From Bolinopsis microptera (lineage: Eukaryota > Ctenophora > Tentaculata > Lobata > Bolinopsidae), in the NCBI RefSeq assembly GCF_026151205.1, contig NC_087073.1, positions 19,062,837-19,126,836 of the forward strand: 64,000 nucleotides of DNA, written 5' to 3'. This document shows, piece after piece, positions 12,904 to 53,016 of this stretch (position 1 is its first letter; each line of letters starts with the position of its first letter). A program made the position numbers and the translations under genes. The notes under the pieces were generated by a model that worked only from the letters and a program-made list of their open reading frames with translations, had not been told where the DNA came from and did not search any database.

Positions 12904-12905
12904 CG

Positions 12906-23491: not shown

Positions 23492-24016
23492 ATGGGTAGA
23501 GTGGACCGCTGCCAGTGTCTCTCTTTCCCAAACAAAAGGAAATGATATTAATTTGATTGACCGTTTTCAAATGCAAAATGATACCGAGAATGAAATCGGT
23601 CGCTCGCTTTTCCCATTCATTCACGGCTTATACGAATTGCAATAGGTTTCGATAAATTACATCGATCACATGCTGTAATAACCTCTTTGGGTTGCGTTCG
23701 GGTCGATACCTAGTATTTCGGGATAATGGTGGTAGTTAGTGAATTAGCTGAAGTTTATTGAATCTTTATTGCCGAGTACAGCTGTCTTCGGGTATGGTAG
23801 TTCTTCTTAATCTATTACATTTGTAAATGAATGGGAAAAGCGAGCGACCGATTTCATTCTCGGTATCATTTTGCATTTGAAAACGGTCAATCAAATTAAT
23901 ATCATTTCCTTTTGTTTGGGAAAGAGAGACACTGGCAGCGGTCCACTCTACCCATGATTATGGGTTTTGGTCAAATATCATCGCTTTTTGATTAATGTCA
24001 GGGTACTTTATATTAA

Positions 24017-26035
24017 AGGACCAGTTAACTGAAAAATTTGTAGTCTCCAATTTGGCTAAGATTTAAATCAGCTGTGACAAACTGGTAAAGAATCGTATCG
24101 CCGAAAGAACCAACTCTCTAGCGTACGTGTAACGCGTGTTATTGCAATAATAAGCTGTGGCCTCGTGACGTCATAAAGTCCCTCAGTGCGCGCTTGCATA
24201 GCGTAATTTACATTACAAATGTTTATCATCGTCAATAAAACACATGTAACTCACTCAAATTTTAGAATTATGACTATTACCCTAGTTCTCCAAAATCCTT
24301 ATAGTTTTGGCTATCATCCTAACTAAAGGAATAGCTGATTGGATGTACAGTGCTCACGTCATGATTTTAAACAGTGATATAGGTTCTTGAACAGTGGCGG
24401 GTGAATGTACGGTTAGAAAGTTTCTGCTATTACAACTTATGTCATATGTGATAATTTTGGATTGTTTTCATTGCTTAATTACACAAGCAGGGAGACTGTA
24501 CCGATTATTTTTCCCCAGTCCATGAAACTCTAACGAATTTAGAAAGGATACAGATAAGTAGGAGTTTGTTCAATTCCGAGAGCAATTATATTTATAGCAT
24601 AGCGAAATTTCTAACTTTAATCTGCAAGTGTCTGCCAGTACAGGAGACAAGAAGTCTGGCTACTTTACGGCCGATCCTCTGGGACCATTAGTAGAAGTAG
24701 CTTCTATCAGAACAGTGCCGTGGGAACAGAATTCCCGCCAAAATACCCGGTCTACCAAATAGTAAAATTACTGATTGGAGGTGTGTACGGTGTGAGGTGT
24801 GTTTTGAATTAGACTTCCGGCTTACCTAGTTGTTATCCTAATTGCATTATCATCGGTGCATAACATAAATAAACTACTGGTAAGTTTAAATACCAAGTGC
24901 AAACGTGTTCAGTCGATCGACCCACTGAACAACTATAGAAAGACCCTATTATTCTCTGGCCATATATTACGGCACGATCGATTGTTAGATGGCTAAATGA
25001 CCAACGTTAATCTATACAATTCTAAAACTATGAGCTAGCACTTTAATCTAAAAATACCTTTTTTATATTACTCCTGATTTTTACATTTCACGTAAAACAT
25101 TGTCGCCAGAGGTTGATCATGGACACTAACAGCTTAATTTGAGATAAATGACTTATGAGTTTCTCTAAAGTTAACTCTAAAGTTGTGTAGTCCAGTCATT
25201 TATGGACATTTATGGAAATGAACCTGCAAATGTTCTAATACTCACGAAACTTTGCACAGACCTTCCCGAAGTTATGATTAAACGATTTTCGTTTGGAGAC
25301 ATTTTTTTGACCGTGGAGAAAACCCAGGAGGGCCACGCCCATATTGACCCAATAACGTAACCGACCCCTTGCTTCTGAAGGTCGTAGAGACTTCAAAATA
25401 GGCTTGAACGAAGCCGCATATGCATGTTTATATAGGAGTTATTGAGCAACACATGGCCTAAAATCCTTACTTTTCGATAAATTCGCCAAAAACCATTTTG
25501 GGCGTGGTGCTAAGCCCATTTCGATATGATCGTGATGGAGTCTTCAGACAGGATGCAAAAGAACTGCAATTAGCATATTAATATATGACTTACGAACAAA
25601 CTTATGCCTTAAAGTACTTACTTTTTCAGTTATTGGCGAAAAACTGATTTTCGGTTCAAGAAATCATGCAAAACTATGGGTATCTGGTTAATTGGGCTAT
25701 GAAGGCCCTAAAGGTTTTTGAATGTGTGCAAATTGTGCAGAATGGTCATGTTTATATACAACTTATAAAGCAACATGTACCCTAAATTACTTACTTTTCG
25801 AGTTATTCGGGGGAAAAGATTGTATTATGTCCATTTTTTACCTGTAAAATACAGTCTCACGAGCTACTCTGCGCGCAAGAGGGACTTCATGACGTCATCG
25901 CCAAAATAATACAAACGCTATTTACACGCGTTAGAGAGCAGTTAGAGATTTAGGAATTTCGACTCGTTGCTTAGTTTGCTATTTGTCACAATCTGTCAAA
26001 ATATGAGGATAACTTTTTTTCAGTTAACTGGTCCT
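24017..26035. mobile_element. 2.0-kb non-coding TIR transposon with TTAA target duplication (Kolobok- or piggyBac-like)
   Basis: Ends are AGGACCAGTTAACTGAAAAA and its exact reverse complement, flanked by TTAA at 24013..24016 and 26036..26039. It interrupts a palindrome-arm repeat that elsewhere reads gtactttataaagtcgaaat. TTAA duplications are typical of piggyBac and Kolobok; the TTAAAGG start resembles Kolobok-related MITEs. The interior has no long frame but carries about three degenerate copies of an ~80-150 bp motif containing acttactttttc or cttacttttcga followed by a ggcg-rich block. Confidence 0.75.
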
Positions 26036-26039
26036 TTAA

Positions 26040-27042
26040 AGTCGAAATATAAACTGATATCTTCATTAATAAGGAGGAAGTTTCAACGATTTCGAAATTT
26101 TTCCTTTGAAAACATTTCCTTGTGTTTGGGTAAACATATCGGTCGATCACTGACTGAATTTGCCACTTTATACTCATTCAAGTTGGCATTAAATTTATAT
26201 ATAATGACATTGAACTGTCGTGGTAAAGCAGAATTTGTTCGAAATCACGAATGAGCAAAATTATCACCTTTCGCACGTGCAAACTATGAGCGGACGTTGC
26301 GTGCGCATCCAATATTGAATCGCCGTAAATTTTTGCGTGTTGGTGCTTTATATATAGTTTGATAAGCATGCAAAGTTTCAAAGTATTTCAAGAAGAACTG
26401 TAATCACAACGGCACACCAACGTTTACAGAAAATGGTAAAAACAGCAATTTTCAGTGATTTTAGCAATTTTTAATCAATTTGGGCGTGTCCCCACGTGTG
26501 CAACTTTTAGATTTTTAACTTTAAAACTAGCCTAATGCACAATTTATACCTATAGGAAGCAGAACTGAGCTCCACAACCCAAGGGATAGCCCAACACCAG
26601 AGAATACTAAATCGCAAAATTGACGTTTTTATAAAATAATTCTTCAAAAAAGTACTAACTTCAATGGCAAATATCTTTATGAAGGAGCAAGGTAGGGAAA
26701 CTTTCCGGTAGATTTTCAGAATGCTTGAACAATTATCTAATGTGAAAATGTCCTCAGATTTTAGATAAAATTACTCCTTAATGGTGTAAAATCAGTTTGA
26801 AAAGTTGTTATTTTGTCAAAAATCAAGTTTTAAAAACACTTAATTTGATGACGTCATCAAGTGGTGATGATGACGTTAAATTATTTTTTGATATAATTGA
26901 AACTGAAGTGTAAACAATTATCTTTAAGACCTGTGGTCGGAAATTGCTGTATCTTTTATACTTTTGAATCTCCGGACACTTAAATTCAGGCTACAATTGA
27001 CTACATTTGACTGGCAAAGCGTCTATCCCTGAATATATGTAT
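26040..27042. repeat. Palindrome-arm repeat, remainder of the copy split by the TIR element
   Basis: Continues from aagtcgaaatataaactg to gcgtctatccctgaatatat, matching the arms at 17.3-18.3 kb and 21.0-22.0 kb with more divergence. Confidence 0.75.
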
Positions 27043-27043
27043 C

Positions 27044-27495
27044 ACGACAATCTATCGTAAAACAGGGGTTCCAGAAAACCCATTTCCCGATACTCCTGAA
27101 ACACGCAATTTTTTTTACAGTCGATTTGGTCAACGTCTAGACGCCCTGCAAAGTTTCAGATCTCTAACTCAATTTTAACATGGTTTTTAAGGCACCTGAA
27201 TATGGCAATTTTGGGTTTTTTACCGAATTTCGTATAACATGCTGGCGCGTATTTTGCGCAAATTTCTTAAAAACCTCCACATAACTATTTCTTGTTCCTG
27301 TCATCTTTAACATTGAATTAGAATGATTTGAACTTAAATATACCTGCTGAACTACTTTCGATGAGTCTTAATGCCCGAAAAACAATAAAGGGTTATAAAA
27401 GAAAAGGGGGTAAATAGTAAAGGGGGTAAATAGTAAAGGGGGTAAATAGTATTGTGAATATAAGAGGCACGGTCATGCTTGCCAGCATTGTGATA
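27044..27495 (+). mobile_element. Hairpin-bearing element, copy lacking the GC hairpin
   Basis: Starts tatcacgacaatctatcg and ends gccagcattgtgata. It keeps the cagtcgatttggtcaacg block and the 16-bp aaagggggtaaatagt repeats (3 units) but lacks the GC-rich stem and its gtgcacgc neighbour present in the 18-kb and 53-kb copies. Confidence 0.65.
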
Positions 27496-27710
27496 CCTTA
27501 TCGGACCTTATTTGGACGGACATTAAATGAACGGACATAATTATGAACGGACATTAATATGAACGCTAGAAGGCACTCAAAACCATCAAAAATCCGATTT
27601 TTTTCCATTTTTTAAGACTTTTTTTTATTTCAGAAAATGATTTTTAAATCCATTTTTTATACAGTAAGTAAGAAAAGCAGTCGTTAACAGTAAAAATCTT
27701 AAAATATGAA
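27496..27710 (+). mobile_element. Truncated pogo-like element, left end
   Basis: CCTTATCGGACCTTATTTGG and three gaacggacat-type subterminal repeats match the left end of the element at 52155..53014, with similarity continuing to about 27710. The right end is missing. It begins directly at the terminal TA of the hairpin element. Confidence 0.65.
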
Positions 27711-27826
27711 TTCTTATAGCAAAACTAATAGTTTCGATTAATTGCATCAATTATCACATGCTGTAAAAATCTCTTCGGGTTGCTTTCGGGTGGATACTTG
27801 ATTGACGTTGTCAACCCTTCCAGATC

Positions 27827-27849
27827 GTTGCTCTGCTTCGCAGAGCAAC
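27827..27849. repeat. Perfect 10-bp hairpin with TTC loop
   Basis: gttgctctgc-ttc-gcagagcaac. The loop context reads GCGAAGC on the other strand, as in the small stem of the hairpin element. Repeated at about 41757. Confidence 0.8.
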
Positions 27850-28302
27850 AACCTGTGACCGAACGTTTGAGGGGGTTCCGGACTCAAAGTTTTTCTACAA
27901 GTAAAAACTACTTTTCTCCGTGTTTTAAGCTATTTCGATCATTTTGAGCCAATTACAAAATTTTACATTTTTTCTAATTAGCTAATTGATAATTATCCAA
28001 TTAACTAATTGTCTGACGTAAAAAGTGTCTTTACAACAGTTTTTCCTCCTGATAAGATGAACACCCTCGATTAATCTGCAAGCTTTTGCGATGATCAAAA
28101 CTAAGGATATTCGACAAACAAGAAAGGTGGTAAAAAGTGGTAAAAGTGGCAAAAAGTGGGCGTAAGACACGTGGAAAAGTTTGGAAAAGTTGGTCAGCCA
28201 TAAAGGGCACCCAATGGGACTCAAAAACGTCAAAAATCCTTCGAAAGCTTCTTGTGTCGGTCGATCGATTTTTTCAGTACTACGATCTGTCTGTACTATA
28301 CT

Positions 28303-28452
28303 GTCCGTGATCTAGCTCGTGATGTTAAACGTGACCTTTCCTAAATCTTGACCAGATTCATGATCTTGTAATACTACAGAATACTACAGAATTCTGTAAA
28401 GAGTGATCACCGTAAAATTTACATCACGAACATCACGAACTAGATCACGGAC
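28303..28452. mobile_element. 150-bp MITE-like inverted repeat upstream of zinc-finger gene A
   Basis: 24-bp terminal inverted repeats starting gtccgtgatctag at 28303 and ending ctagatcacggac at 28452, one mismatch. No coding sequence. It lies about 475 bp before the start codon of the zinc-finger gene and is duplicated at about 42233..42382. Confidence 0.65.
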
Positions 28453-28926
28453 TGTATGGTTATGCAATATTCAAATATATATTCAGATATATTCAGCTAC
28501 ATAACATTATCGTGGAGCTTTAGTTTAAAGACTGTAGTTTAATTGTTTCCAAGATTAGGTTTAGAAGTTTATTATAATAGTAATAAATGTATGTATATAT
28601 GTATTATCTTTTATTTGCAACTAATTATCGGCAAAATATCAAAATAACATTTTAAACTTTGAACGAATTTGACTACCCTCTCCGCCATTTCCCTATTTTC
28701 TGTGATCAAGGCTTGTTTTTTTCATTGGGTCTTTCTATTCTCTAATTAGCTAGCTTTAAGTATGATGCTCCATGAACAGAGCTAACATTTTTCCAATTAA
28801 TTCTTATCTGAAATATCGTATCGGAGATAATACACCTCGAATTTACATTCATATCATTTTCTAGTGACCATCATCAAATACCAACATATTCACACGTATG
28901 CGTACGGTTGTTGACTTTCCAGTAAA

Positions 28927-30747
28927 ATGAAGCAGCAAAATGTACCAGAGTTTAAAGATGATATGAAGATGGAAGAAGATTGCATCCTACCAGAATTGAT
29001 AAAGACAGATATCAAGAAAGAGGGCCTGGAAGATTACATCGTACCAGAATTGATAAAGACAGATATCAAGAAAGAGGGCCTGGAAGATTACATCGTACCA
29101 GAATTGATGAAGACAGATATCAAGAAAGAGGAAGATAATCTTGTTATTAAATCAGAAAGGTATTCGAATCCTACTTCTCAGATGCATTGTCCCATCCAAG
29201 AATCAGCATTACCTTGTCAACAGTTGGTTCATACTGATGAAAAGACTTACAAGACTGAATGTTCGTACAGTGCAAGCAAAACAACAGCTTTAGTTCTACA
29301 TCAACAGATTCATACTGGTGAAAAAACTTATAAATGCTCTGAATGTTCCTACAGTGCAAGCCGAAAGAGAGCTTTAGTTTTACATCGTCGGACTCATACT
29401 GGCGAAAAAATGTACAGCTGCTCTGAATGTTCCTACAGTTCAAGCCAAAAATCAGCTTTAGTTTCACATCGACGGACTCATACTGGTGAAAAGCCATATA
29501 AATGCTCTGAATGTTCCTACAGCGCAAGCGTAAAACCAAATTTAGTTCGCCATCAGCTGATTCACACTGGTGAAAAACCTTACAAATGCTCTGAATGTTC
29601 CTACAGCTCAAGCCAAAAATCAGCTTTAGTTTCACATCGACGGACTCATACTGGTGAAAAACCATATAGTTGCTCTGAATGTTCCTACAGTTCATGCCAA
29701 AAATCAGTTTTAGTTTCACATCGACGGACTCATACTGGTGAAAAACCATATAAATGCTCTGAATGTTCCTACAGTGCAAGCAACAGATCAAATTTAGTTT
29801 GCCATCGGCGGACTCATACTGGCGAAAAGCCATATAAATGCTCTGAATGTTCCTACAGTGCAAGCCGAAAGAGAGCTTTAGTTTTACATCGTCGGACTCA
29901 TACTGGCGAAAAAATGTACAGCTGCTCTGAATGTTCCTACAGTTCAAGCCAAAAATCAGCTTTAGTTTCACATCGACGGACTCATACTGGTGAAAAGCCA
30001 TATAAGTGCTCTGAATGTTCCTACAGCGCAAGCGTAAAACCAAATTTAGTTCGCCATCAGCTGATTCACACTGGTGAAAAACCTTACAAATGCTCTGAAT
30101 GTTCCTACAGCTCAAGCCAAAAATCAGCTTTAGTTTCACATCGACGGACTCATACTGGTGAAAAACCATATAGTTGCTCTGAATGATCCTACAGTTCAAG
30201 CCAAAAATCAGTTTTAGGTTCACATCGACGGACTCATACTGGTGAAAAACCATATAAATGCTCTGAATGTTCCTACAGTGCAAGCAACAGATCAAATTTA
30301 GTTTGCCATCGGCGGACTCATACTGGCGAAAAGCCATATAAATGCTCTAAATGTTCCAACAGTGCAAACCTAAAACCAAATGACAGTAAAAATACATATC
30401 GATCTTCTGAATGTTCTTATGATGGTTGTCATAAGTCAACTTTGGCTTTTCCAAAGCGGAACTATACCGGAGAAAACTCACACACTTTTCATGAAAAACA
30501 AAACGATAGTGTTGAAAGACCCCTTTTTGTTAAACCTATACCTTTCGTGAAGCCTCTAACATCTTTAGCTGAGTCAGCTGACTCCCTACTCTCCAGTTCC
30601 AGCTTACTTCCCGGTTCCTTCTCCAGTTACCAACCAACATCTCACTTGTCTCCCCCAGCAATAAGTGGAACAACAAATTTCTCAACAGTTAATACCACAA
30701 AAGCCGCCAAGGGGGTGGGTGGATCTTTTGACAAAATTCCAAAATGA
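28927..30747 (+). CDS. C2H2 zinc-finger protein A, copy 1 (in-frame TGA at 30184)
   Basis: The frame from ATG 28927 runs 419 codons to TGA at 30184..30186 and then stays open for 187 more codons to the stop ending at 30747. Residues 1-80 are acidic with three 18-residue repeats ([16 protein letters not shown]) carrying SUMO-type IKKE motifs at 29-32, 47-50 and 65-68 plus IKSE at 74-77. Then come C-x2-C-x12-H-x3-H fingers with TGEKPY linkers. Finger 1 lacks its first Cys; fingers 2-11 are intact; finger 12 is broken by TGA where paralogous fingers have TGT (Cys); one more good finger, degenerate ones and a Ser/Pro-rich tail follow. Helix types repeat in order (RKRA, QKSA, VKPN, QKSA, QKSV, NRSN, then again). 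Expected role: sequence-specific nuclear DNA binding, possibly SUMO-dependent repression. The product may simply end at residue 419. Single exon as read. Confidence 0.8.
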
Positions 30748-31404
30748 CATTTACTCTTAGTCGACGTCGAGTAGAGAACTTGGTACTTGATCCCCCCTCC
30801 CGGAGTTATAGGAAGTTAAATTCAATCTTCACTAGTCAAGTCACGGCTGTTATACTTGGAAATCACGTTAAATTAGTTTGGCTTTTTGTTTACCCTCACC
30901 GGTGATGTTTTATAATTTTGCTTACAGACTATCGTGATTGCTTGATAATTTTGTTGCAGGCTGATGCAAATTTCGACTGAGCGAGTTCATATACTTTTGC
31001 AATTTCCCGAATTTTAGGTATTTTAAGTTGGGGAATGGGGGAAAAACGTGGGAAGGCGACACAATGCACATAGGTATGTTTGGTCACTGATATCACACCT
31101 GACACCATGCAACAGGTGCGAAGTAAAGCTCAAAAGTCAAAACCGTTACCGTGGAGCTTTAGTTTGGAGAGTTCTAGTTTTAGGGAGCATCCACATATCA
31201 GTATTACTATTACGTCAGCAAGTTTTTGGCCATTGTTTGTTGTTACCCAATCCGTCAATCCGTGTTAGCAACTGTTTTCACATAGCCAATGATAGTTCGT
31301 CTGGTGCGTCGAAGTACTCCAAGGCCCATATCAGTTAAATCTTTCCAATTAATTTTAATCTGAAATGTCGATTCGAAGAGAGGATATCTCGAATTTATAT
31401 TCAT
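30748..31404. other. Intergenic DNA between zinc-finger genes A and B, with duplicated 5' region
   Basis: No supported gene. cgtggagctttagtttggag (31.15 kb) and aattaattttaatctgaaat to ctcgaatttatattcat (31.35-31.40 kb) match the upstream region of gene A at 28.51 kb and 28.79-28.86 kb, so the gene duplication carried its 5' flank with it. Confidence 0.6.
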
Positions 31405-32282
31405 ACTAGAAAGCCCGTGGTAACAGGGACGAAGCTAGTAGTATTCTTTGAAAGAAGGTTTTAATCGCATCAAAAAAGATCCATCCCGACCGAAGATACA
31501 GTCAATTTAAATATAAAACACTTAAAACACAACGTAATTACCACAAAACCGATCAAAATGACATTAAAACAATCTTTGCACGTGCATGTGTGCATTAAAA
31601 CACCGTTGCTATGGAACCTTTTGGTTGTTACCTAAATTCCTATTTCTCATCTAATTTGCACGTGGGCGGTCGTACAGACAGACAGACGTCTACCATAGAT
31701 GTGACGTTGCTAACAGGGGTAAATTGAAGCTTTGTGTGCTTTTTATTACAGCCCTGCAGTAGATTCAATGCTGTATGGGCTACAGCCGCACTGCAATGTT
31801 GTTGGCCATTAGGGGTGCCAGTCTGGGCGGTCAAGGATGTCCTAGGGTATCTCTCTTAGCTGTATCGCACAATCGCACGCGTACCCTCGGGTTTAAATAG
31901 TGTGCTCTGGGCTCGCAATTCTGTGTGGTATGGTGATGGAGGATGCCTAGGGCTAACGAAACCCCTACGCGATATAAATTCCTGCATTTCCATTGAAGAA
32001 TGTGAGGTTTAGTGTCTTGTGGAGGATAACAACTATGTCAGTCCCTGTTTCGGAGTGAGCTCTGCTCCCCGTCTCACACAAGCGCTGGTGCAACCAACCC
32101 TTGACATGATCACTTTCCTGCAATGGAAACCGGGACCTGTATGCTGTGACTCTTACCTAGTTAGTCCCCGACTACTAGCGCAGTCCAGACAGGGCAACTG
32201 CAGTAATGTAGTTGCATTTATCATACAACAACAACAACAGCAGAAATAATTCTTTGAATTATAGTAGAGATTATTGTTTAGC
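31405..32282. repeat. ~0.87-kb insertion between the conserved 5' flank and gene B
   Basis: Gene A has the conserved 5' flank about 65 bp before its ATG. In gene B the same flank is separated by a block starting aaagcccgtggtaacaggga and ending in a caacaacaacaacagcag tract. The simple-repeat end and the mixed content suggest one or two retroelement fragments in the 5' region. No domain-bearing frame seen. Confidence 0.5.
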
Positions 32283-32336
32283 GATGATCATCAAAGGCTA
32301 ACATCTCTACACGTAGGGTAATTTACTTTCCGAAAA

Positions 32337-33965
32337 ATGGAACAGCGAAATGCACCAGAGTTTAAAGATGATATGAAAATGGAAGAAGATTGTGTCCTAC
32401 CAGAGTTGATAAAGACAGAGATCAAGAAAGAGGGCCTGGAAGATTGCAACTTACCAGAATTGATAAAGACAGAGATCAAGAAAGAGGGCCTGGAAGATTG
32501 CAACTTACCAGAATTGATAAAGTCAGAGATCAAGAAAGAGGAAGATAATCTTGTTATTAAAACAGAAAGGTATTCGAATCCTACTTCTCAGATGCATTGT
32601 CCCATCCAAGAATCAGCATTACCTTGTCAACAGTTGGTTCATACTGATGAAAAGACTTACAAGACTGAATGTTCGTACAGTGCAAGCAAAACAACAGCTT
32701 TAGTTCTACATCAACAGATTCATACTGGTGAAAAAACTTATAAATGCTCTGAATGTTCCTACAGTGCAAGCCGAAAGAGAGCTTTAGTTTTACATCGTCG
32801 GACTCATACTGGCGAAAAAATGTACAGCTGCTCTGAATGTTCCTACAGTTCAAGCCAAAAATCAGCTTTAGTTTCACATCGACGGACTCATACTGGTGAA
32901 AAGCCATATAAATGCTCTGAATGTTCCTACAGCGCAAGCGTAAAACCAAATTTAGTTCGCCATCAGCTGATTCACACTGGTGAAAAACCTTACAAATGCT
33001 CTGAATGTTCCTACAGCTCAAGCCAAAAATCAGCTTTAGTTTCACATCGACGGACTCATACTGGTGAAAAACCATATAGTTGCTCTGAATGTTCCTACAG
33101 TTCAAGCCAAAAATCAGTTTTAGTTTCACATCGACGGACTCATACTGGTGAAAAACCATATAAATGCTCTGAATGTTCCTACAGTGCAAGCAACAGATCA
33201 AATTTAGTTTGCCATCGGCGGACTCATACTGGCGAAAAGCCATATAAATGCTCTGAATGTTCCTACAGTGCAAGCCGAAAGAGAGCTTTAGTTTTACATC
33301 GTCGGACTCATACTGGCGAAAAAATGTACAGCTGCTCTGAATGTTCCTACAGTTCAAGCCAAAAATCAGCTTTAGTTTCACATCGACGGACTCATACTGG
33401 TGAAAAACCATATAGTTGCTCTGAATGATCCTACAGTTCAAGCCAAAAATCAGTTTTAGGTTCACATCGACGGACTCATACTGGTGAAAAACCTTACAAA
33501 TACTCTGAATGTTCCTACAGTGCAAGCAACAGATCAAATTTAGTTTGCCATCGGCGGACTCATACTGGCGAAAAGCCATATAAATGCTCTAAATGTTCCA
33601 ACAGTGCAAACCCAAAATCAAATGACAGTAAAAATACATATCGATCTTCTGAATGTTCTTATGATGGTTGTCATAAGTCAACTTTGGCTTTTCCAAAGCG
33701 GAACTATACCGGAGAAAACTCACACACTTTTCATGAAAAACAAAACGATAGTGTTGAAAGACCCCTTTTTGTTAAACCTATACCTTTCGTGAAGCCTCTA
33801 ACATCTTTAGCTGAGTCAGCTGACTCCCTACTCTCCAGTTCCAGCTTACTTCCCGGTTCCTTCTCCAGTTACCAACCAACATCTCACTTGTCTCCCCCAG
33901 CAATAAGTGGAACAACAAATTTCTCAACAGTTAATACCTTGTCAATTACAGCTGATTCATACTGA
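32337..33965 (+). CDS. C2H2 zinc-finger protein B, copy 1 (in-frame TGA at 33426)
   Basis: Paralogue of gene A. From ATG 32337 the frame gives 363 residues to TGA at 33426..33428, again exactly at the second zinc-binding Cys codon of a finger, and stays open in the same frame to 33965. The N-terminal repeats here read TEIKKE/SEIKKE and give seven IKxE motifs (Lys 26, 30, 44, 48, 62, 66, 75). It has the degenerate first finger and eight intact fingers before the stop, two fewer than A (VKPN and QKSA missing). After the TGA one finger has lost a Cys (YKYSEC), a sign of decay. The tail runs into a different 3' end from A: after the shared Ser/Pro-rich segment it switches at about 33940 into the start of fragment C. 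Role as for A. Confidence 0.78.
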
Positions 33966-34570
33966 TGAGAAGTCTTACAAATGCTCTGAATGTTCGTACA
34001 GTGCAAGCCGAAAACACAATTTAGTTCGTCATAAGCTGATTCACACTGGTGAAAAGCCTTACAAATGCTCTGAATGTTCCTACAGTGCAAGCCAAAAGAG
34101 AGCTTTAGTTTTACATCGACGGACTCATACTGGTGAAAAGCCATATAAATGCTCTGAATGTTCATACAGTACAAGCGTACAACCGAATTTAGTTCGCCAT
34201 CAGCTGATTCACACTGGTGAAAAACCTTACAAATGCTCTGAATGTTCCTACAGTGCAAGCGTAAAACCCAATTTAGTTCGTCATCAGCTGATTCACACTG
34301 GTGAAAAACCTTACAAATGCTCTGAATGTTCCTACAGTGCAAACCAAAAGATAGCATTAGTTTTACATCGGCGGACTCATACTGGCGAAAAACCATATAA
34401 ATGCTCTGAATGTTCCTACACTGCAAGCGACAGATCAAATTTAGTTTTGCCATCGGCGGACTCATACTGGTGAAAAACCATATAAATGCTCTAAAAGTAA
34501 ATGTTCCAACAGTGCAAGCCTTAAACCAAATGACAGTAAAAATACATATCGATCTTCTGAATGTTCTTTT
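33907..34570 (+). pseudogene. Zinc-finger fragment C, copy 1 (5' truncated, frameshifted)
   Basis: A third member of the family joined to the tail of gene B. Similarity to the other genes begins at ccttgtcaattacagctgat (compare ccttgtcaacagttggttca), so the acidic N-terminus is absent. Five intact fingers (RKHN, QKRA, VQPN, VKPN, QKIA) follow, then a sixth (DRSN) is broken by one extra T (ttagttttgcc against ttagtttgcc in A and B), giving a stop at 34471..34473. In the shifted frame the family tail ([13 protein letters not shown]) can still be read. A splice acceptor (ttacag) at the junction could let it be used as a downstream exon, but a recombination scar is simpler. Confidence 0.75.
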
Positions 34571-34573
34571 ATT

Positions 34574-35936
34574 GGTTTTCATAAGTCAATCTTATAGCTG
34601 CAGGAACTGGACGAAGTTTTTAACTCAAATCAAATTTAATGATCAAAGCCAAAAGCTGATGTAAAAGGTTTTGTAAAAGGTTTTGTAAAGTGAAATTAGT
34701 TTCTTATTTTCATAGTTAATATTCGGGTTTTATCAAGTTTTCGAGCAACTATTACATGTAAGACCTAACCTTCATTTGGATATTTAAAAGACAAATTAAA
34801 TACACACAAGGGTTTACGGTAAAGTAAATCGGGGTTTACTGTAGGAATCAGTAAAACCGCAATTTACCTTACCGTTAATCCCGGTTTACCGTACAGCCCA
34901 TACTCATAGGGAGTTTAAGCAGACTGAAACTATTAATATTATATCGTTAAATTCGCTGATAATGATGATACTCATACATTGTACACTGTGTTCATACTTC
35001 AATTTAAAGCCGCATACAGTTCAGTGTGTTGATAAGAACACAACTGATACGAAAGCGAGTGAATTTGTAACGTTACTAGAATAGACTGTGCATGCAACTG
35101 TCGGAAAATCTATATATTCGAGAGTAGGTTGAACAATTAATACCAGATTATACGAGTAAGTTCTTTATTTCAAAGTTAAAGTCATAAAATAAGCACAAGA
35201 ATCGCATAAATATACTTGATTATCTAATCGATTGTGATAATTTTCTTGCTTGAATCATTTAAGTTGTCAAATAATTTAACGTTCTATTCGTTGTCGTGAG
35301 CTTTTAAAACCAATACTTATAAATGTAAAACTAAAAGAGTACGAAGTTCAAGATTAAATGTAAATTTATTCATTATTTGATACAACAATCTGTTTGTAGT
35401 GATACTGTAAATACTAAATTGTGAAATTGTGAAATGAAATATAAGGTCAAAATATCAAATCTGTATATAAATATTAGTGAAGCTAACAAAAAAGCAGTAG
35501 AATTCCTGCAGTCCAAGTAATTGGTATATACTATTGGTTCATTTAAAAACACAAATTCAAACTAAAATGTGGTCTAAGTTTCAGTTTCCATAATTATTAA
35601 TTTATTTCTGATAGGTGTGGATTCTTGTGTGGAGGCATATTGACAGTGATTCTGGGGTTTGAATTTCATCAGTCAATAGTGGATGCTGATTGGTTAATTG
35701 CTGTCACGCGTCAAAACAATATGCCTCACTTCCCCACCAGAATCTACATCTATTAAACCTAAGTTGAAATTGTCGTCGTGATAGTATCAGCCATGATGTC
35801 CCTTTTATTTGCCTAAGTCTTCTTATTCCTGAGAAGAAATGAAGAAATATATTAGAATTATTAATTCTTCTTCCAGTCGTTTATGAATTAAACACAAATT
35901 ACTTATATAACTCAAACTTCAGTTAACATTACAGCC
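34574..35936. other. Non-coding, with a small palindromic repeat near 34.81-34.90 kb
   Basis: Contains GTAAATCGGGGTTTACTG and related inverted pieces of the family at 10340. Otherwise AT-rich with no supported gene. Confidence 0.5.
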
Positions 35937-36840: not shown

Positions 36841-36969
36841 TGTGCTACGGGTTTCCAGGAATATTAATATTATTAAACAGAAGTTTTACGTTATCTCTCT
36901 GTGGCCAATTCGTAATCAGTTTTCTGTTTTACACATTGACATAGCTACCGTAAAGTTATACAAGCGTTA

Positions 36970-37229: not shown

Positions 37230-37231
37230 TA

Positions 37232-37920: not shown

Positions 37921-37924
37921 TTAA

Positions 37925-40957: not shown

Positions 40958-41425
40958 ACGACAATCTATCGTAAAACAGGGGTTCCAGAAAACCCATTTC
41001 CCGATACTCCTGAAACACGCAATTTTTTTTACAGTCGATTTGGTCAACGTCTAGACGCCCTGCAAAGTTTCAGATCTCTAACTCAATTTTAACATGGTTT
41101 TTAAGGCACCTGAATATGGCAATTTTGGGTTTTTTACCGAATTTCGTATAACATGCTGGCGCGTATTTTGCGCAAATTTCTTAAAAACCTCCACATAACT
41201 ATTTCTTGTTCCTGTCATCTTTAACATTGAATTAGAATGATTTGAACTTAAATATACCTGCTGAACTACTTTCGATGAGTCTTAATGCCCGAAAAACAAT
41301 AAAGGGTTATAAAAGAAAAGGGGGTAAATAGTAAAGGGGGTAAATAGTAAAGGGGGTAAATAGTAAAGGGGGTAAATAGTATTGTGAATATAAGAGGCAC
41401 GGTCATGCTTGCCAGCATTGTGATA
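40958..41425 (+). mobile_element. Hairpin-bearing element, copy in duplicate 2
   Basis: Same as 27044..27495 but with four 16-bp aaagggggtaaatagt units where copy 1 has three. The truncated pogo-like end follows at 41426..41640. Confidence 0.65.
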
Positions 41426-42856
41426 CCTTATCGGACCTTATTTGGACGGACATTAAATGAACGGACATAATTATGAACGGACATTAATATGAACGCTAGA
41501 AGGCACTCAAAACCATCAAAAATCCGATTTTTTTCCATTTTTTAAGACTTTTTTTTATTTCAGAAAATGATTTTTAAATCCATTTTTTATACAGTAAGTA
41601 AGAAAAGCAGTCGTTAACAGTAAAAATCTTAAAATATGAATTCTTATAGCAAAACTAATAGTTTCGATTAATTGCATCAATTATCACATGCTGTAAAAAT
41701 CTCTTCGGGTTGCTTTCGGGTGGATACTTGATTGACGTTGTCAACCCTTCCAGATCGTTGCTCTGCTTCGCAGAGCAACAACCTGTGACCGAACGTTTGA
41801 GGGGGTTCCGGACTCAAAGTTTTTCTACAAGTAAAAACTACTTTTCTCCGTGTTTTAAGCTATTTCGATCATTTTGAGCCAATTACAAAATTTTACATTT
41901 TTTCTAATTAGCTAATTGATAATTATCCAATTAACTAATTGTCTGACGTAAAAAGTGTCTTTACAACAGTTTTTCCTCCTGATAAGATGAACACCCTCGA
42001 TTAATCTGCAAGCTTTTGCGATGATCAAAACTAAGGATATTCGACAAACAAGAAAGGTGGTAAAAAGTGGTAAAAGTGGCAAAAAGTGGGCGTAAGACAC
42101 GTGGAAAAGTTTGGAAAAGTTGGTCAGCCATAAAGGGCACCCAATGGGACTCAAAAACGTCAAAAATCCTTCGAAAGCTTCTTGTGTCGGTCGATCGATT
42201 TTTTCAGTACTACGATCTGTCTGTACTATACTGTCCGTGATCTAGCTCGTGATGTTAAACGTGACCTTTCCTAAATCTTGACCAGATTCATGATCTTGTA
42301 ATACTACAGAATACTACAGAATTCTGTAAAGAGTGATCACCGTAAAATTTACATCACGAACATCACGAACTAGATCACGGACTGTATGGTTATGCAATAT
42401 TCAAATATATATTCAGATATATTCAGCTACATAACATTATCGTGGAGCTTTAGTTTAAAGACTGTAGTTTAATTGTTTCCAAGATTAGGTTTAGAAGTTT
42501 ATTATAATAGTAATAAATGTATGTATATATGTATTATCTTTTATTTGCAACTAATTATCGGCAAAATATCAAAATAACATTTTAAACTTTGAACGAATTT
42601 GACTACCCTCTCCGCCATTTCCCTATTTTCTGTGATCAAGGCTTGTTTTTTTCATTGGGTCTTTCTATTCTCTAATTAGCTAGCTTTAAGTATGATGCTC
42701 CATGAACAGAGCTAACATTTTTCCAATTAATTCTTATCTGAAATATCGTATCGGAGATAATACACCTCGAATTTACATTCATATCATTTTCTAGTGACCA
42801 TCATCAAATACCAACATATTCACACGTATGCGTACGGTTGTTGACTTTCCAGTAAA

Positions 42857-44677
42857 ATGAAGCAGCAAAATGTACCAGAGTTTAAAGATGATATGAAGAT
42901 GGAAGAAGATTGCATCCTACCAGAATTGATAAAGACAGATATCAAGAAAGAGGGCCTGGAAGATTACATCGTACCAGAATTGATAAAGACAGATATCAAG
43001 AAAGAGGGCCTGGAAGATTACATCGTACCAGAATTGATGAAGACAGATATCAAGAAAGAGGAAGATAATCTTGTTATTAAATCAGAAAGGTATTCGAATC
43101 CTACTTCTCAGATGCATTGTCCCATCCAAGAATCAGCATTACCTTGTCAACAGTTGGTTCATACTGATGAAAAGACTTACAAGACTGAATGTTCGTACAG
43201 TGCAAGCAAAACAACAGCTTTAGTTCTACATCAACAGATTCATACTGGTGAAAAAACTTATAAATGCTCTGAATGTTCCTACAGTGCAAGCCGAAAGAGA
43301 GCTTTAGTTTTACATCGTCGGACTCATACTGGCGAAAAAATGTACAGCTGCTCTGAATGTTCCTACAGTTCAAGCCAAAAATCAGCTTTAGTTTCACATC
43401 GACGGACTCATACTGGTGAAAAGCCATATAAATGCTCTGAATGTTCCTACAGCGCAAGCGTAAAACCAAATTTAGTTCGCCATCAGCTGATTCACACTGG
43501 TGAAAAACCTTACAAATGCTCTGAATGTTCCTACAGCTCAAGCCAAAAATCAGCTTTAGTTTCACATCGACGGACTCATACTGGTGAAAAACCATATAGT
43601 TGCTCTGAATGTTCCTACAGTTCATGCCAAAAATCAGTTTTAGTTTCACATCGACGGACTCATACTGGTGAAAAACCATATAAATGCTCTGAATGTTCCT
43701 ACAGTGCAAGCAACAGATCAAATTTAGTTTGCCATCGGCGGACTCATACTGGCGAAAAGCCATATAAATGCTCTGAATGTTCCTACAGTGCAAGCCGAAA
43801 GAGAGCTTTAGTTTTACATCGTCGGACTCATACTGGCGAAAAAATGTACAGCTGCTCTGAATGTTCCTACAGTTCAAGCCAAAAATCAGCTTTAGTTTCA
43901 CATCGACGGACTCATACTGGTGAAAAGCCATATAAGTGCTCTGAATGTTCCTACAGCGCAAGCGTAAAACCAAATTTAGTTCGCCATCAGCTGATTCACA
44001 CTGGTGAAAAACCTTACAAATGCTCTGAATGTTCCTACAGCTCAAGCCAAAAATCAGCTTTAGTTTCACATCGACGGACTCATACTGGTGAAAAACCATA
44101 TAGTTGCTCTGAATGATCCTACAGTTCAAGCCAAAAATCAGTTTTAGGTTCACATCGACGGACTCATACTGGTGAAAAACCATATAAATGCTCTGAATGT
44201 TCCTACAGTGCAAGCAACAGATCAAATTTAGTTTGCCATCGGCGGACTCATACTGGCGAAAAGCCATATAAATGCTCTAAATGTTCCAACAGTGCAAACC
44301 TAAAACCAAATGACAGTAAAAATACATATCGATCTTCTGAATGTTCTTATGATGGTTGTCATAAGTCAACTTTGGCTTTTCCAAAGCGGAACTATACCGG
44401 AGAAAACTCACACACTTTTCATGAAAAACAAAACGATAGTGTTGAAAGACCCCTTTTTGTTAAACCTATACCTTTCGTGAAGCCTCTAACATCTTTAGCT
44501 GAGTCAGCTGACTCCCTACTCTCCAGTTCCAGCTTACTTCCCGGTTCCTTCTCCAGTTACCAACCAACATCTCACTTGTCTCCCCCAGCAATAAGTGGAA
44601 CAACAAATTTCTCAACAGTTAATACCACAAAAGCCGCCAAGGGGGTGGGTGGATCTTTTGACAAAATTCCAAAATGA
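42857..44677 (+). CDS. C2H2 zinc-finger protein A, copy 2
   Basis: Same predicted protein as the gene at 28927, with ATG 42857, the in-frame TGA at 44114..44116 and the open continuation to 44677. I see no coding difference from copy 1. See that entry for domains. Confidence 0.8.
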
Positions 44678-46266
44678 CATTTACTCTTAGTCGACGTCGA
44701 GTAGAGAACTTGGTACTTGATCCCCCCTCCCGGAGTTATAGGAAGTTAAATTCAATCTTCACTAGTCAAGTCACGGCTGTTATACTTGGAAATCACGTTA
44801 AATTAGTTTGGCTTTTTGTTTACCCTCACCGGTGATGTTTTATAATTTTGCTTACAGACTATCGTGATTGCTTGATAATTTTGTTGCAGGCTGATGCAAA
44901 TTTCGACTGAGCGAGTTCATATACTTTTGCAATTTCCCGAATTTTAGGTATTTTAAGTTGGGGAATGGGGGAAAAACGTGGGAAGGCGACACAATGCACA
45001 TAGGTATGTTTGGTCACTGATATCACACCTGACACCATGCAACAGGTGCGAAGTAAAGCTCAAAAGTCAAAACCGTTACCGTGGAGCTTTAGTTTGGAGA
45101 GTTCTAGTTTTAGGGAGCATCCACATATCAGTATTACTATTACGTCAGCAAGTTTTTGGCCATTGTTTGTTGTTACCCAATCCGTCAATCCGTGTTAGCA
45201 ACTGTTTTCACATAGCCAATGATAGTTCGTCTGGTGCGTCGAAGTACTCCAAGGCCCATATCAGTTAAATCTTTCCAATTAATTTTAATCTGAAATGTCG
45301 ATTCGAAGAGAGGATATCTCGAATTTATATTCATACTAGAAAGCCCGTGGTAACAGGGACGAAGCTAGTAGTATTCTTTGAAAGAAGGTTTTAATCGCAT
45401 CAAAAAAGATCCATCCCGACCGAAGATACAGTCAATTTAAATATAAAACACTTAAAACACAACGTAATTACCACAAAACCGATCAAAATGACATTAAAAC
45501 AATCTTTGCACGTGCATGTGTGCATTAAAACACCGTTGCTATGGAACCTTTTGGTTGTTACCTAAATTCCTATTTCTCATCTAATTTGCACGTGGGCGGT
45601 CGTACAGACAGACAGACGTCTACCATAGATGTGACGTTGCTAACAGGGGTAAATTGAAGCTTTGTGTGCTTTTTATTACAGCCCTGCAGTAGATTCAATG
45701 CTGTATGGGCTACAGCCGCACTGCAATGTTGTTGGCCATTAGGGGTGCCAGTCTGGGCGGTCAAGGATGTCCTAGGGTATCTCTCTTAGCTGTATCGCAC
45801 AATCGCACGCGTACCCTCGGGTTTAAATAGTGTGCTCTGGGCTCGCAATTCTGTGTGGTATGGTGATGGAGGATGCCTAGGGCTAACGAAACCCCTACGC
45901 GATATAAATTCCTGCATTTCCATTGAAGAATGTGAGGTTTAGTGTCTTGTGGAGGATAACAACTATGTCAGTCCCTGTTTCGGAGTGAGCTCTGCTCCCC
46001 GTCTCACACAAGCGCTGGTGCAACCAACCCTTGACATGATCACTTTCCTGCAATGGAAACCGGGACCTGTATGCTGTGACTCTTACCTAGTTAGTCCCCG
46101 ACTACTAGCGCAGTCCAGACAGGGCAACTGCAGTAATGTAGTTGCATTTATCATACAACAACAACAACAGCAGAAATAATTCTTTGAATTATAGTAGAGA
46201 TTATTGTTTAGCGATGATCATCAAAGGCTAACATCTCTACACGTAGGGTAATTTACTTTCCGAAAA

Positions 46267-47895
46267 ATGGAACAGCGAAATGCACCAGAGTTTAAAGATG
46301 ATATGAAAATGGAAGAAGATTGTGTCCTACCAGAGTTGATAAAGACAGAGATCAAGAAAGAGGGCCTGGAAGATTGCAACTTACCAGAATTGATAAAGAC
46401 AGAGATCAAGAAAGAGGGCCTGGAAGATTGCAACTTACCAGAATTGATAAAGTCAGAGATCAAGAAAGAGGAAGATAATCTTGTTATTAAAACAGAAAGG
46501 TATTCGAATCCTACTTCTCAGATGCATTGTCCCATCCAAGAATCAGCATTACCTTGTCAACAGTTGGTTCATACTGATGAAAAGACTTACAAGACTGAAT
46601 GTTCGTACAGTGCAAGCAAAACAACAGCTTTAGTTCTACATCAACAGATTCATACTGGTGAAAAAACTTATAAATGCTCTGAATGTTCCTACAGTGCAAG
46701 CCGAAAGAGAGCTTTAGTTTTACATCGTCGGACTCATACTGGCGAAAAAATGTACAGCTGCTCTGAATGTTCCTACAGTTCAAGCCAAAAATCAGCTTTA
46801 GTTTCACATCGACGGACTCATACTGGTGAAAAGCCATATAAATGCTCTGAATGTTCCTACAGCGCAAGCGTAAAACCAAATTTAGTTCGCCATCAGCTGA
46901 TTCACACTGGTGAAAAACCTTACAAATGCTCTGAATGTTCCTACAGCTCAAGCCAAAAATCAGCTTTAGTTTCACATCGACGGACTCATACTGGTGAAAA
47001 ACCATATAGTTGCTCTGAATGTTCCTACAGTTCAAGCCAAAAATCAGTTTTAGTTTCACATCGACGGACTCATACTGGTGAAAAACCATATAAATGCTCT
47101 GAATGTTCCTACAGTGCAAGCAACAGATCAAATTTAGTTTGCCATCGGCGGACTCATACTGGCGAAAAGCCATATAAATGCTCTGAATGTTCCTACAGTG
47201 CAAGCCGAAAGAGAGCTTTAGTTTTACATCGTCGGACTCATACTGGCGAAAAAATGTACAGCTGCTCTGAATGTTCCTACAGTTCAAGCCAAAAATCAGC
47301 TTTAGTTTCACATCGACGGACTCATACTGGTGAAAAACCATATAGTTGCTCTGAATGATCCTACAGTTCAAGCCAAAAATCAGTTTTAGGTTCACATCGA
47401 CGGACTCATACTGGTGAAAAACCATATAAATACTCTGAATGTTCCTACAGTGCAAGCAACAGATCAAATTTAGTTTGCCATCGGCGGACTCATACTGGCG
47501 AAAAGCCATATAAATGCTCTAAATGTTCCAACAGTGCAAACCCAAAATCAAATGACAGTAAAAATACATATCGATCTTCTGAATGTTCTTATGATGGTTG
47601 TCATAAGTCAACTTTGGCTTTTCCAAAGCGGAACTATACCGGAGAAAACTCACACACTTTTCATGAAAAACAAAACGATAGTGTTGAAAGACCCCTTTTT
47701 GTTAAACCTATACCTTTCGTGAAGCCTCTAACATCTTTAGCTGAGTCAGCTGACTCCCTACTCTCCAGTTCCAGCTTACTTCCCGGTTCCTTCTCCAGTT
47801 ACCAACCAACATCTCACTTGTCTCCCCCAGCAATAAGTGGAACAACAAATTTCTCAACAGTTAATACCTTGTCAATTACAGCTGATTCATACTGA
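46267..47895 (+). CDS. C2H2 zinc-finger protein B, copy 2
   Basis: Same as the gene at 32337 up to the TGA at 47356..47358. The visible differences lie after the TGA: aaaccatataaatactct here against aaaccttacaaatactct in copy 1, two synonymous-position changes in the linker that match other fingers of the family and look like gene conversion. Both copies keep the Cys-to-Tyr change (TAC) in that finger. Confidence 0.78.
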
Positions 47896-48500
47896 TGAGA
47901 AGTCTTACAAATGCTCTGAATGTTCGTACAGTGCAAGCCGAAAACACAATTTAGTTCGTCATAAGCTGATTCACACTGGTGAAAAGCCTTACAAATGCTC
48001 TGAATGTTCCTACAGTGCAAGCCAAAAGAGAGCTTTAGTTTTACATCGACGGACTCATACTGGTGAAAAGCCATATAAATGCTCTGAATGTTCATACAGT
48101 ACAAGCGTACAACCGAATTTAGTTCGCCATCAGCTGATTCACACTGGTGAAAAACCTTACAAATGCTCTGAATGTTCCTACAGTGCAAGCGTAAAACCCA
48201 ATTTAGTTCGTCATCAGCTGATTCACACTGGTGAAAAACCTTACAAATGCTCTGAATGTTCCTACAGTGCAAACCAAAAGATAGCATTAGTTTTACATCG
48301 GCGGACTCATACTGGCGAAAAACCATATAAATGCTCTGAATGTTCCTACACTGCAAGCGACAGATCAAATTTAGTTTTGCCATCGGCGGACTCATACTGG
48401 TGAAAAACCATATAAATGCTCTAAAAGTAAATGTTCCAACAGTGCAAGCCTTAAACCAAATGACAGTAAAAATACATATCGATCTTCTGAATGTTCTTTT
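47837..48500 (+). pseudogene. Zinc-finger fragment C, copy 2
   Basis: Identical by eye to the fragment at 33907, including the one-base T insertion that ends the frame at 48401..48403. Confidence 0.75.
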
Positions 48501-49866
48501 ATTGGTTTTCATAAGTCAATCTTATAGCTGCAGGAACTGGACGAAGTTTTTAACTCAAATCAAATTTAATGATCAAAGCCAAAAGCTGATGTAAAAGGTT
48601 TTGTAAAAGGTTTTGTAAAGTGAAATTAGTTTCTTATTTTCATAGTTAATATTCGGGTTTTATCAAGTTTTCGAGCAACTATTACATGTAAGACCTAACC
48701 TTCATTTGGATATTTAAAAGACAAATTAAATACACACAAGGGTTTACGGTAAAGTAAATCGGGGTTTACTGTAGGAATCAGTAAAACCGCAATTTACCTT
48801 ACCGTTAATCCCGGTTTACCGTACAGCCCATACTCATAGGGAGTTTAAGCAGACTGAAACTATTAATATTATATCGTTAAATTCGCTGATAATGATGATA
48901 CTCATACATTGTACACTGTGTTCATACTTCAATTTAAAGCCGCATACAGTTCAGTGTGTTGATAAGAACACAACTGATACGAAAGCGAGTGAATTTGTAA
49001 CGTTACTAGAATAGACTGTGCATGCAACTGTCGGAAAATCTATATATTCGAGAGTAGGTTGAACAATTAATACCAGATTATACGAGTAAGTTCTTTATTT
49101 CAAAGTTAAAGTCATAAAATAAGCACAAGAATCGCATAAATATACTTGATTATCTAATCGATTGTGATAATTTTCTTGCTTGAATCATTTAAGTTGTCAA
49201 ATAATTTAACGTTCTATTCGTTGTCGTGAGCTTTTAAAACCAATACTTATAAATGTAAAACTAAAAGAGTACGAAGTTCAAGATTAAATGTAAATTTATT
49301 CATTATTTGATACAACAATCTGTTTGTAGTGATACTGTAAATACTAAATTGTGAAATTGTGAAATGAAATATAAGGTCAAAATATCAAATCTGTATATAA
49401 ATATTAGTGAAGCTAACAAAAAAGCAGTAGAATTCCTGCAGTCCAAGTAATTGGTATATACTATTGGTTCATTTAAAAACACAAATTCAAACTAAAATGT
49501 GGTCTAAGTTTCAGTTTCCATAATTATTAATTTATTTCTGATAGGTGTGGATTCTTGTGTGGAGGCATATTGACAGTGATTCTGGGGTTTGAATTTCATC
49601 AGTCAATAGTGGATGCTGATTGGTTAATTGCTGTCACGCGTCAAAACAATATGCCTCACTTCCCCACCAGAATCTACATCTATTAAACCTAAGTTGAAAT
49701 TGTCGTCGTGATAGTATCAGCCATGATGTCCCTTTTATTTGCCTAAGTCTTCTTATTCCTGAGAAGAAATGAAGAAATATATTAGAATTATTAATTCTTC
49801 TTCCAGTCGTTTATGAATTAAACACAAATTACTTATATAACTCAAACTTCAGTTAACATTACAGCC

Positions 49867-50770
49867 TCACCCAGTTCGAAGGTTGTTGCGATGTCTGTTG
49901 TACATCTTTGTCCGGAAAAACTTTCTAATGCTCTTCAAAGTAAGCACATGCAAATTGATCACAATCTGAAGGAACAGCAAAAAGTCGGCTAGTCTGTATA
50001 AGTGGTGGTTGAATTCTTCTTCGGAAATGTGTAATTCTATGATTTGGTAAACAGCAAATGGAAGGAAGGAGATGCAAGACCCTTTTCCACTTCAGACTTT
50101 CTCCACGCTTGCTAACGATCTCTTTAGCCATGATTATCATTTGAATTGTGGTTGTAACAACAATACAGTTTAGAATAGAGATAAATATGGCTGTTGTCAA
50201 CGTCCTAATCCGACGCCAAATATTTCTACTCAAAACAAAGTCGCAACCATAACCTTTGTATGAAAAGCAAATTTCCCATTCATAATCAAGGATCAGGGTC
50301 GTCACTAGGCCGATCGAAGCTATCAACCAAAACGCTCCACAAATCTGATGTATGGTCTTCAACGTAACTGTCGACGACTGGAGGGGGTATTTGAGGAGAA
50401 GCAGCAGGACCGAAGGCATAGCGCAAACAAGAGACAGGATGACTCCATACAAGTAATACCTACCGAGACAACACGCTGTACACAGGACGTTGCCTAGCAA
50501 CCATCTATCAGCAATGAGGGAGGTAACCTTCGGAAGTATGGATACCACACAGATCATTAAGTCACATACAGCAATGTGTTGGATGATAGCTAGGAGGACC
50601 TTGTCAAGTCGGATGGCCCTGTACTTGACGGATATAATCAGAATGAATGTGTCCCCGACAAGAGATGAACAGAGAATCACTAAGAAATACACAGACCACG
50701 TGTATCTCATCACATCACTTTTAATGGAGTGCAGAGTTCCGTTACTGTAATCATATTCCAGGGTCGTCAT
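49867..50770 (-). pseudogene. Rhodopsin-like GPCR, copy 2, disrupted in TM6
   Basis: Identical by eye to 35937..36840, including the frame-breaking loss of the first half of TM6. The lesion therefore predates the 13.9-kb duplication. Confidence 0.75.
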
Positions 50771-50899
50771 TGTGCTACGGGTTTCCAGGAATATTAATAT
50801 TATTAAACAGAAGTTTTACGTTATCTCTCTGTGGCCAATTCGTAATCAGTTTTCTGTTTTACACATTGACATAGCTACCGTAAAGTTATACAAGCGTTA

Positions 50900-51152
50900 G
50901 GGGTCGGTCACATATTACGTAATCAGCTGAGGGGGGGGGGGGTTTCCGAATGATTACGCTAGTGTAATTTTGACACAATAGCTATGTGTAAAACTGATTA
51001 CGGAGGGGGGAAGGGGGGGGGGGGGGGGGGGGGGTAAAAATGTTCCAAAAAATGATTACGTAATATGTGAACGACTCCTTACCACCTAGAAACCCCCCCC
51101 CCCCCCCCCCCCCCTTCAGTGATCACATAATATGTGAATTGAGAACTACCCC
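50900..51152. mobile_element. MITE with poly-G and poly-C runs (copy 2)
   Basis: Same element as 36970..37229 with different homopolymer lengths: the first G run is about 12 here against about 20 in copy 1. Confidence 0.7.
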
Positions 51153-52154
51153 TAACACCTAAGTAGAAAGTAATACAATCGCAAATTGAATAAACGGAAA
51201 CCTAGGTGGCACTAATTTAAATTAAACACAACGTATCGACCACAAAATACATATCAATTACTGATCTAGATTGGGATAAATTAAAAGCAAAAGATAAAAA
51301 TACACCTTATCAAGAATTCCTGACTAAATCAAAATGAATTGCCATAGTCACGGCAGATATTATTCAACTGATAGTGATATAAACATGTTGTAAATGTAAT
51401 AATATGGGGGACTAAACATAATTTAGTCAATCAATCACAGTCTGCTTGTCCTAATAATTGAGTATAGTAGCTCAATTTAACATCAAATTTAGGGTTTTCT
51501 AGAAAAAGCATCCAGACAAGTCTCACGAGTGGAGTTGTTGAATAAATGTATTACACCCTGGTCATTAGGAAATTTCGCACGAGATGGACCATGACCCGAT
51601 CACGTTTTTCCAATTTATCTTTAGAAGATTGTCACAGCTAGGAAGAACTTTTAAGATATATAATAGGCATGTTGATGTATGAATTATAATGGTTATATGA
51701 TTAAGGGTCTTACTAATGACCAGGGTTATCATTGTCTTTCGTTATCGTAAACCTTTCACGAGATAGCATTTATAAAAAAATTCCTATGTCAATGTGAACT
51801 GATAGGTTTTTTACCATCTCCCGAACATGATTGTTTGTTACATTTAATAACATATCACATAACGGAGTAGTTCGCTGTTTTTTAATATTAGTCTCAATAA
51901 CTCATGATTGAAATGTAATACTGATAGTTGGATAAATATCTGGTTGGAAGAGACAAGGACAAGTAAAACAAGGAAGTTAATAACATATACGTTAAGAAGG
52001 TTTTAATATTTTATTGTATAAATATCTAATATGATATACAAATCATATGAAATTGAATAGAGATTCGGCGGGATGATAGGCTGAGCGCGGCCCAGTAAAG
52101 TTTGTGAGGCGCGTCGAATCGGCGAAGTCCTCCCAGGTGGATACATACGTCATA

Positions 52155-53014: not shown

Positions 53015-53016
53015 TA

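Follow-up and report, generated by a model that had tools for sequence, protein, structure and literature searches.

The 64,000-nucleotide stretch analysed here (the window; C2:19062837-19126836 of the Bolinopsis microptera genome) contains a gene-bearing direct tandem repeat, each unit of which begins with a copy of a transposon-like element, E, followed by a portion that we call B' (Table 1). Searches were made in one assembly only, of 264.65 Mb and 232 contigs, in which the labels C1-C13 carry megabase-scale positions and only small positions fall on C19, C44 and C188. Three open reading frames (ORFs) of the unit were assigned to C2H2 zinc-finger proteins, two from the ORF list and a Pfam scan and the third by the look of its sequence. 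A fourth ORF on the other strand gave no Pfam match at an E-value of 0.001; by eye we take its product to resemble a seven-transmembrane receptor.

Table 1. Features of the window discussed in the text (positions in the window)
Feature	Position	Strand	Remarks
Repeat R, left part of the copy interrupted by E	23492..24012	+	left flank
Copy A of the tandem unit (E + B')	24013..37920	+	13,908 bp; from self-BLAST and copy-copy alignment
E1, nonautonomous Kolobok-type element	24013..26039	+	both TTAA included; lacks the 6-bp ATTTCC
Repeat R, right part	26037/26040..27045	+	in copy A; that of copy B starts at 39954
Older block bounded by inverted repeat M ends	27493..53016		shared end to end with C13
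C2H2 zinc-finger ORF 1	28927..30186	+	copy B: 42857-44116
C2H2 zinc-finger ORF 2	32337..33428	+	copy B: 46267-47358
C2H2 zinc-finger ORF 3	33907..34473	+	copy B: 47837-48403
281-aa ORF	35995..36840	-	copy B: 49925-50770
Junction	37917..37930	+	right end of B' (..TTACAT), TTAA (37921-37924), left end of E (AGGACC..)
Copy B of the tandem unit	37921..51843	+	13,923 bp; head to tail, directly abuts copy A
E2, sister of E1, at the duplication junction	37921..39953	+	carries ATTTCC
Outer right border	51844..51847		ancestral TTAA, without E

Self-BLAST of the window aligned 24013-37924 with 37921-51847 at 99.76% identity (2 mismatches, 31 gap positions), which confirms the near-identity reported in a preliminary description made from the sequence alone. 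Alignment of both copies resolved their differences into two substitutions and four indels: 6 bp within E (24939/38848), a single 16-bp minisatellite unit (27402), and length changes of 8 bases in a G-run (37001) and of one base in a C-run (37170). The substitutions, at 33494 and 33497, lie three bases apart in the zinc-finger repeat, and aside from this site there is not one substitution between the two 13.9-kb copies. Long aligned pieces of a paralogue on C13 are only 95.7-99.6% identical to the window. Judged by this paralogue and by other E copies, copy B has kept the older state at both the 6-bp site in E and the finger-repeat site. The two copy-A substitutions yield a motif present in other finger units, and it is likely from this match that they arose by conversion.

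The borders of the duplication are exact, as the preliminary description had it: the first base of each copy is the first base of the TTAA-flanked element with terminal inverted repeats (TIRs), and TTAA stands at all three borders (24013, 37921 and 51844), the outer right one included. TTAA occupies 0.86% of window positions (550 in 64,000) and E ends 1.8e-6 of genome positions (479 in 264.65 Mb). For a random tandem duplication to have this border pair, we estimate a chance of order 1e-8, to be raised by a small factor that allows for slack in microhomology.

The TIR arms of E1 are 41 bp long and 80% complementary, and both E1 and E2 read TTAA followed by AGGACCAGTTAACTG at either end. Genome-wide, a search for E ends with at most 2 mismatches found 237 + 242 = 479, versus 1 + 4 for a reversed control, and the family numbers roughly 240 copies. 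We aligned 30 of these, the best of 40 scored candidates (792 at first look), with roughly 200 members outside the alignment; L023 is partial in it, with 1,840 bases, and the L017 sequence begins only at position 3. TTAA was present at both ends in 28 of the 30 loci, L017 lacking the left one and the alignment of L023 stopping before the right end. The ATTTCC that distinguishes E2 from E1 is exact in 26 of the 28 other copies and has one or two changed bases in the remaining two. A longer relative of E (L031, C1:16944437-16949604) has both ends in common with it and contains an uninterrupted stop-to-stop frame of 796 codons that matches the THAP domain (PF05485, 1.4e-10) and a Mutator-like transposase (PF20700, 3.1e-10); no Kolobok-named model was among the Pfam matches of this frame. 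THAP, a TTAA target and RR termini are given as Kolobok features, T2-MITE termini as AGGRR, and AGGAC.. TIRs occur among the full-length elements listed (PMC6004289). The E terminus, AGGACC, begins with RR in the corresponding place and is not strictly AGGRR. Because of its TTAA target, its AGGAC.. TIR and a longer relative with THAP and transposase domains, E can be classed as a young nonautonomous Kolobok-type cut-and-paste transposon. In L031 a second frame, of 249 codons (967-1716, minus strand), matches the P2X7 intracellular domain P2RX7_C with an E-value of 2e-15. At another locus (L032, C2:3016729-3022387) an E copy is split by sequence with a 1031-codon open frame, presumably, as it appears by eye, of a LINE-type reverse transcriptase.

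E1 lies within a copy of repeat R, and R copies at 17.3, 19.9 and 21.0 kb of the window are uninterrupted at the corresponding site; we read R as older than E and E as inserted into it. These three copies are without three bases included in the TTAA of the interrupted copy, and the exact empty site was not seen. E1 and E2 have 8 states in common (7 substitutions and 1 one-base gap) that are absent from the other 28 aligned copies. Because eight variants are private to the pair among 30 copies, E1 and E2 are sisters: E2 descends from the element of E1, through either unit duplication or a local hop, unless there was an exchange within the first 231 bp. Two of the private variants, at positions 232 and 662, are near the left end. 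Elsewhere, the window carries a tandem repeat with a 119-bp period (7151-9391; 18.8 copies, 97% matches) and a hexamer array of GTCAGG (12650-12904; 42.5 copies).

Paralogues show what the right border looks like outside the duplication. The C13 paralogue aligns unbroken across 51844 (50075-53016, 98.27%) and reads ..GTTACAT TTAA TAACATATC.. there, the same as the window. Four paralogues on C1 also cross 51844 without E, three with the exact motif and the fourth by alignment. Because all five paralogues examined are uninterrupted at the TTAA and without E, the outer right border is ancestral, the new event being the joining of E's left end to the right-border TTAA at 37921. We also considered macro-transposition of the whole 13.9-kb unit by way of a pseudo-end, and rejected it: the right border, in reverse complement ATGTAACAAACA.., is unlike AGGACCAGTTAACTG. 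On C1, several copies of this gene region lie clustered (C1:2202853-2245186, pieces 86-98% identical), possibly at its native locus. The C13 counterpart of the M-bounded block, at about 6473677-6483146, has flanks unrelated to those of the window. The M ends of the block are a left fragment (27493-27708) and a full M copy (52152-53016), reading TACCTTATCGGAC.. with TA at both ends, and no longer target duplication is apparent at the ends of the block. The tandem duplication lies partly inside this block, as does most of B', and the block, with its C2H2 zinc-finger genes, may be a composite transposon.

The preliminary description had suggested looking for other loci where the left end of E joins a TTAA without the element's right flank; a partial survey of E loci found none among those compared. 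The left ends surveyed were those among the matches listed (best 100 of 216 and best 100 of 151, in overlapping lists), and among these were six other same-orientation E pairs within 70 kb, a limit that leaves out a C1 pair at 24.40/24.48 Mb, 74.7 kb apart. Both sides were compared for four pairs (C1 16.13/16.17 Mb, C5 3.33/3.34, C5 17.42/17.47 and C3 1.195), all without the signature, while C2 19.57/19.61 and C5 19.62/19.69 were compared in part, one right end of each not being located in the stretch. An opposite-orientation pair on C1 (8.22/8.24) had no common flanks beyond the element ends. When the 1.5-kb flanks of the 30 loci were compared all against all, only L001/L002 shared a flank from the element border without sharing the other one; L021/L023 shared both. 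The latter (C7:10080030 and C7:10326276), 246 kb apart and 99.3-99.8% identical over E and 1.5-kb flanks, are either a recent segmental duplication or a retained haplotype. At C3:1193167-1195599 (L057, L060) a 435-bp sequence is directly repeated, the two copies being separated by 200 bp of filler; about 156 bp from the start of an E copy form part of the repeat, whose breakpoint is near the subterminal inverted repeat of E.

Because an E end is joined to an ancestral TTAA and the two E copies are sisters, it is strongly supported that the end of E set the breakpoint. Our leading explanation, to which we give somewhat less than an even chance, is duplication by a transposase-driven join (alternative transposition). 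Before the event, E would have sat at 24013 inside R. During or after replication, Kolobok transposase would free its left end on one chromatid, and the freed end would join the native TTAA 13.9 kb downstream (51844) on the sister or homologous chromatid. E and everything rightward of it would thereby be linked to the left part of the other chromatid, giving A-[TTAA-E-B']-[TTAA-E-B']-TTAA-C in one step, and the partner chromatid would receive the reciprocal deletion. The join could have taken a reversed-ends form, a hybrid-element form with a third chromatid as its target, or a single-ended form; we infer the action of transposase, the chromatids involved and the part played by a second end. 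Such an aberrant transposition, with the sister chromatid or the homologue supplying the TTAA, was among the proposals of the preliminary description, and it stands as the leading model, although unequal crossover, which that description did not consider, yields the same structure. There are exactly two E copies at the duplication and none at the right border. Maize Ac duplications also have one breakpoint without Ac, and their authors reject non-allelic homologous recombination (NAHR) on the ground that neither a third Ac nor a footprint is present (PMC3744419). Single-ended joins of piggyBac into TTAA have been seen in a plasmid assay (PMC3952818).

Several points weigh against a transposase-driven join. 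Reversed-ends transposition requires another E end, located to the left of E1 and facing it, and no convincing one was found in window 1-24012. The best terminus-like match there (13470-13496; 20 of 27 bases) is TTAA-ended and faces E1 as required; at 18 of 23 it is slightly better than the best matches of 15-17 that 12 plain shuffles gave, and possibly chance. Three R copies contain a 38-bp stretch that resembles the right end at 74% and lacks its terminal bases (best E-value 0.005), and the closest TIR leftward on C2, counting exact TIRs only, is about 1.37 Mb away. Hybrid insertion between two sisters would, by our derivation, leave copy A without E, so a third chromatid is required. Insertion into that third chromatid, or a single-ended join, would require no left partner end, but to our knowledge single-ended joining is a property of piggyBac and we know of none for Kolobok. 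The signature was, moreover, found at no second E locus in the partial survey.

Unequal crossover between E copies (NAHR) would give exactly A-E-B'-E-B'-TTAA-C. E would hop from 24013 to the TTAA at 51844 and then recombine with the E at 24013 on a chromatid whose 51844 is empty; in a variant, a three-E product would lose its last E by precise excision. The intermediate that this calls for exists elsewhere, as a direct-orientation sister pair 12.5 kb apart with unrelated flanks (C5:3324136-3326183 and C5:3336617-3338669), 99.66% identical to each other with the next best at 98%. Close neighbours are also in excess, 4 of 89 gaps falling within 15 kb versus 1.1 expected (94 left ends among the matches listed, C1-C5, with C4 taken as 20 Mb, a guess). 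This excess is weak evidence because of what the four gaps are, namely the window duplication itself, a small local repeat, an opposite-orientation pair and the C5 pair. An unrelated E at 51844 is an unlikely partner: with variants 232 and 662 shared by E1 and E2, the exchange would have to fall in the first 231 of about 2,030 bp, so any E at 51844 was most likely derived from E1. No trace of a different E was found in E2 in the 30-copy alignment, and a daughter of E1 acting as donor would leave none. Crossover needs two events, and the third E must have gone without trace; neither an E at 51844 nor a three-E array is present in the assembly. Since piggyBac excises precisely and TTAA elements can leave no footprint (PMC3952818), the missing-footprint argument is weaker here than in maize. 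In our judgement, the transposase-driven join is modestly favoured over crossover because E1 and E2 are sisters and a third E is missing, which leaves crossover unlikely though a serious contender. Precise excision by Kolobok is not known to us.

Two further explanations are improbable. One is a false tandem in the assembly, in which one locus or two near-identical haplotypes were wrongly placed side by side. What is probably the source assembly was made with wtdbg, its gaps closed by TGS-Gapcloser, haplotigs removed by Purge Haplotigs and the sequence polished by pilon with Illumina reads (PMC10232365). A PacBio CLR library of the species came from an F3 cultured individual, which would be the same animal as the assembly source, and heterozygosity is reported to be low in California populations (PMC9585324). 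The assembly route and such an animal mean that near-identity alone leaves room for two near-identical haplotypes, so the earlier caution that near-identity could reflect either a recent event or a falsely duplicated haplotype holds, as does its counterargument from the exact junction at an E end. A random false join would miss the terminal base of E and the TTAA; the join itself would imply a real molecule with E at that TTAA; and the copies differ by the 6-bp deletion in E and the 16-bp repeat unit. We had considered C188 as a haplotig for gauging heterozygosity, but over its first 6,800 bp the matches listed were repeat pieces elsewhere and uninformative. The other explanation, about as improbable, is repair of a break at the left end of E, transposase-made or not, by joining or template switching at the 4-bp TTAA microhomology, an alternative also raised in the preliminary description. 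TTAA at all three borders agrees with it, TTAA being common in the window, and the filler-containing duplication at the left end of the C3 element suggests that breaks occur near E ends. Microhomology is nonetheless the weaker alternative: nothing obliges repair to fall precisely on the terminal base of E or on a TTAA, and a join there with no bases lost and no filler added is, in our judgement, better explained by transposase.

Repeat recombination and replication errors are the usual explanations of tandem gene duplication. It is possible, at rather less than even odds, that here a Kolobok-type TTAA element duplicated a gene-bearing stretch in tandem, in a single step in an animal germ line, one of its ends joining a distant TTAA on another chromatid. 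If so, a cut-and-paste transposase would directly generate new gene copies in animals, and any TTAA downstream of an element might become a duplication breakpoint. Such events could be under-counted because TTAA elements, piggyBac for one, can leave no footprint (PMC3952818). The locus is open to direct testing by PCR and long reads.

This kind of event is already known; Kolobok as its agent was not met in a limited literature search of titles and abstract starts, which is weak evidence of absence. The Xenopus Kolobok superfamily and its T2-MITEs resemble E in their TTAA target, AGG.. termini, THAP transposase and many nonautonomous copies, but they belong to a different host and the part of PMC6004289 available to us describes no such rearrangement. 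Duplication by transposable-element-mediated NAHR likewise has homologous direct E copies at the left border and the junction, whereas in the window the third E is missing and a donor at 51844 is unseen. In hybrid element insertion of Drosophila P elements, ends of two chromatids are used together and give flanking rearrangements; unlike the window, its two-chromatid form would by our derivation leave copy A without an element. Such insertion is mentioned in PMC3744419 and PMC2775673. Single-ended transposition of piggyBac (PMC3952818) similarly joins one end of a TTAA element to a TTAA, but in a plasmid assay in cultured cells and in a different superfamily. The maize Ac duplications that arise through alternative transposition (PMC3744419) have the same anatomy as that in the window, [E-B'][E-B']TTAA, with a junction of target site and transposon end, one breakpoint without the element and a target site duplication signature. 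They differ in that Ac is a hAT element with an 8-bp target duplication, its two reversed ends were known beforehand and the twin deletion was recovered, whereas the window has a TTAA Kolobok-type element in a natural genome, with no convincing second end nearby and no twin. With the same tentativeness as for a one-step Kolobok origin, the duplication may be the counterpart, in nature and in an animal, of what alternative transposition does with Ac in maize, possibly in single-ended form.

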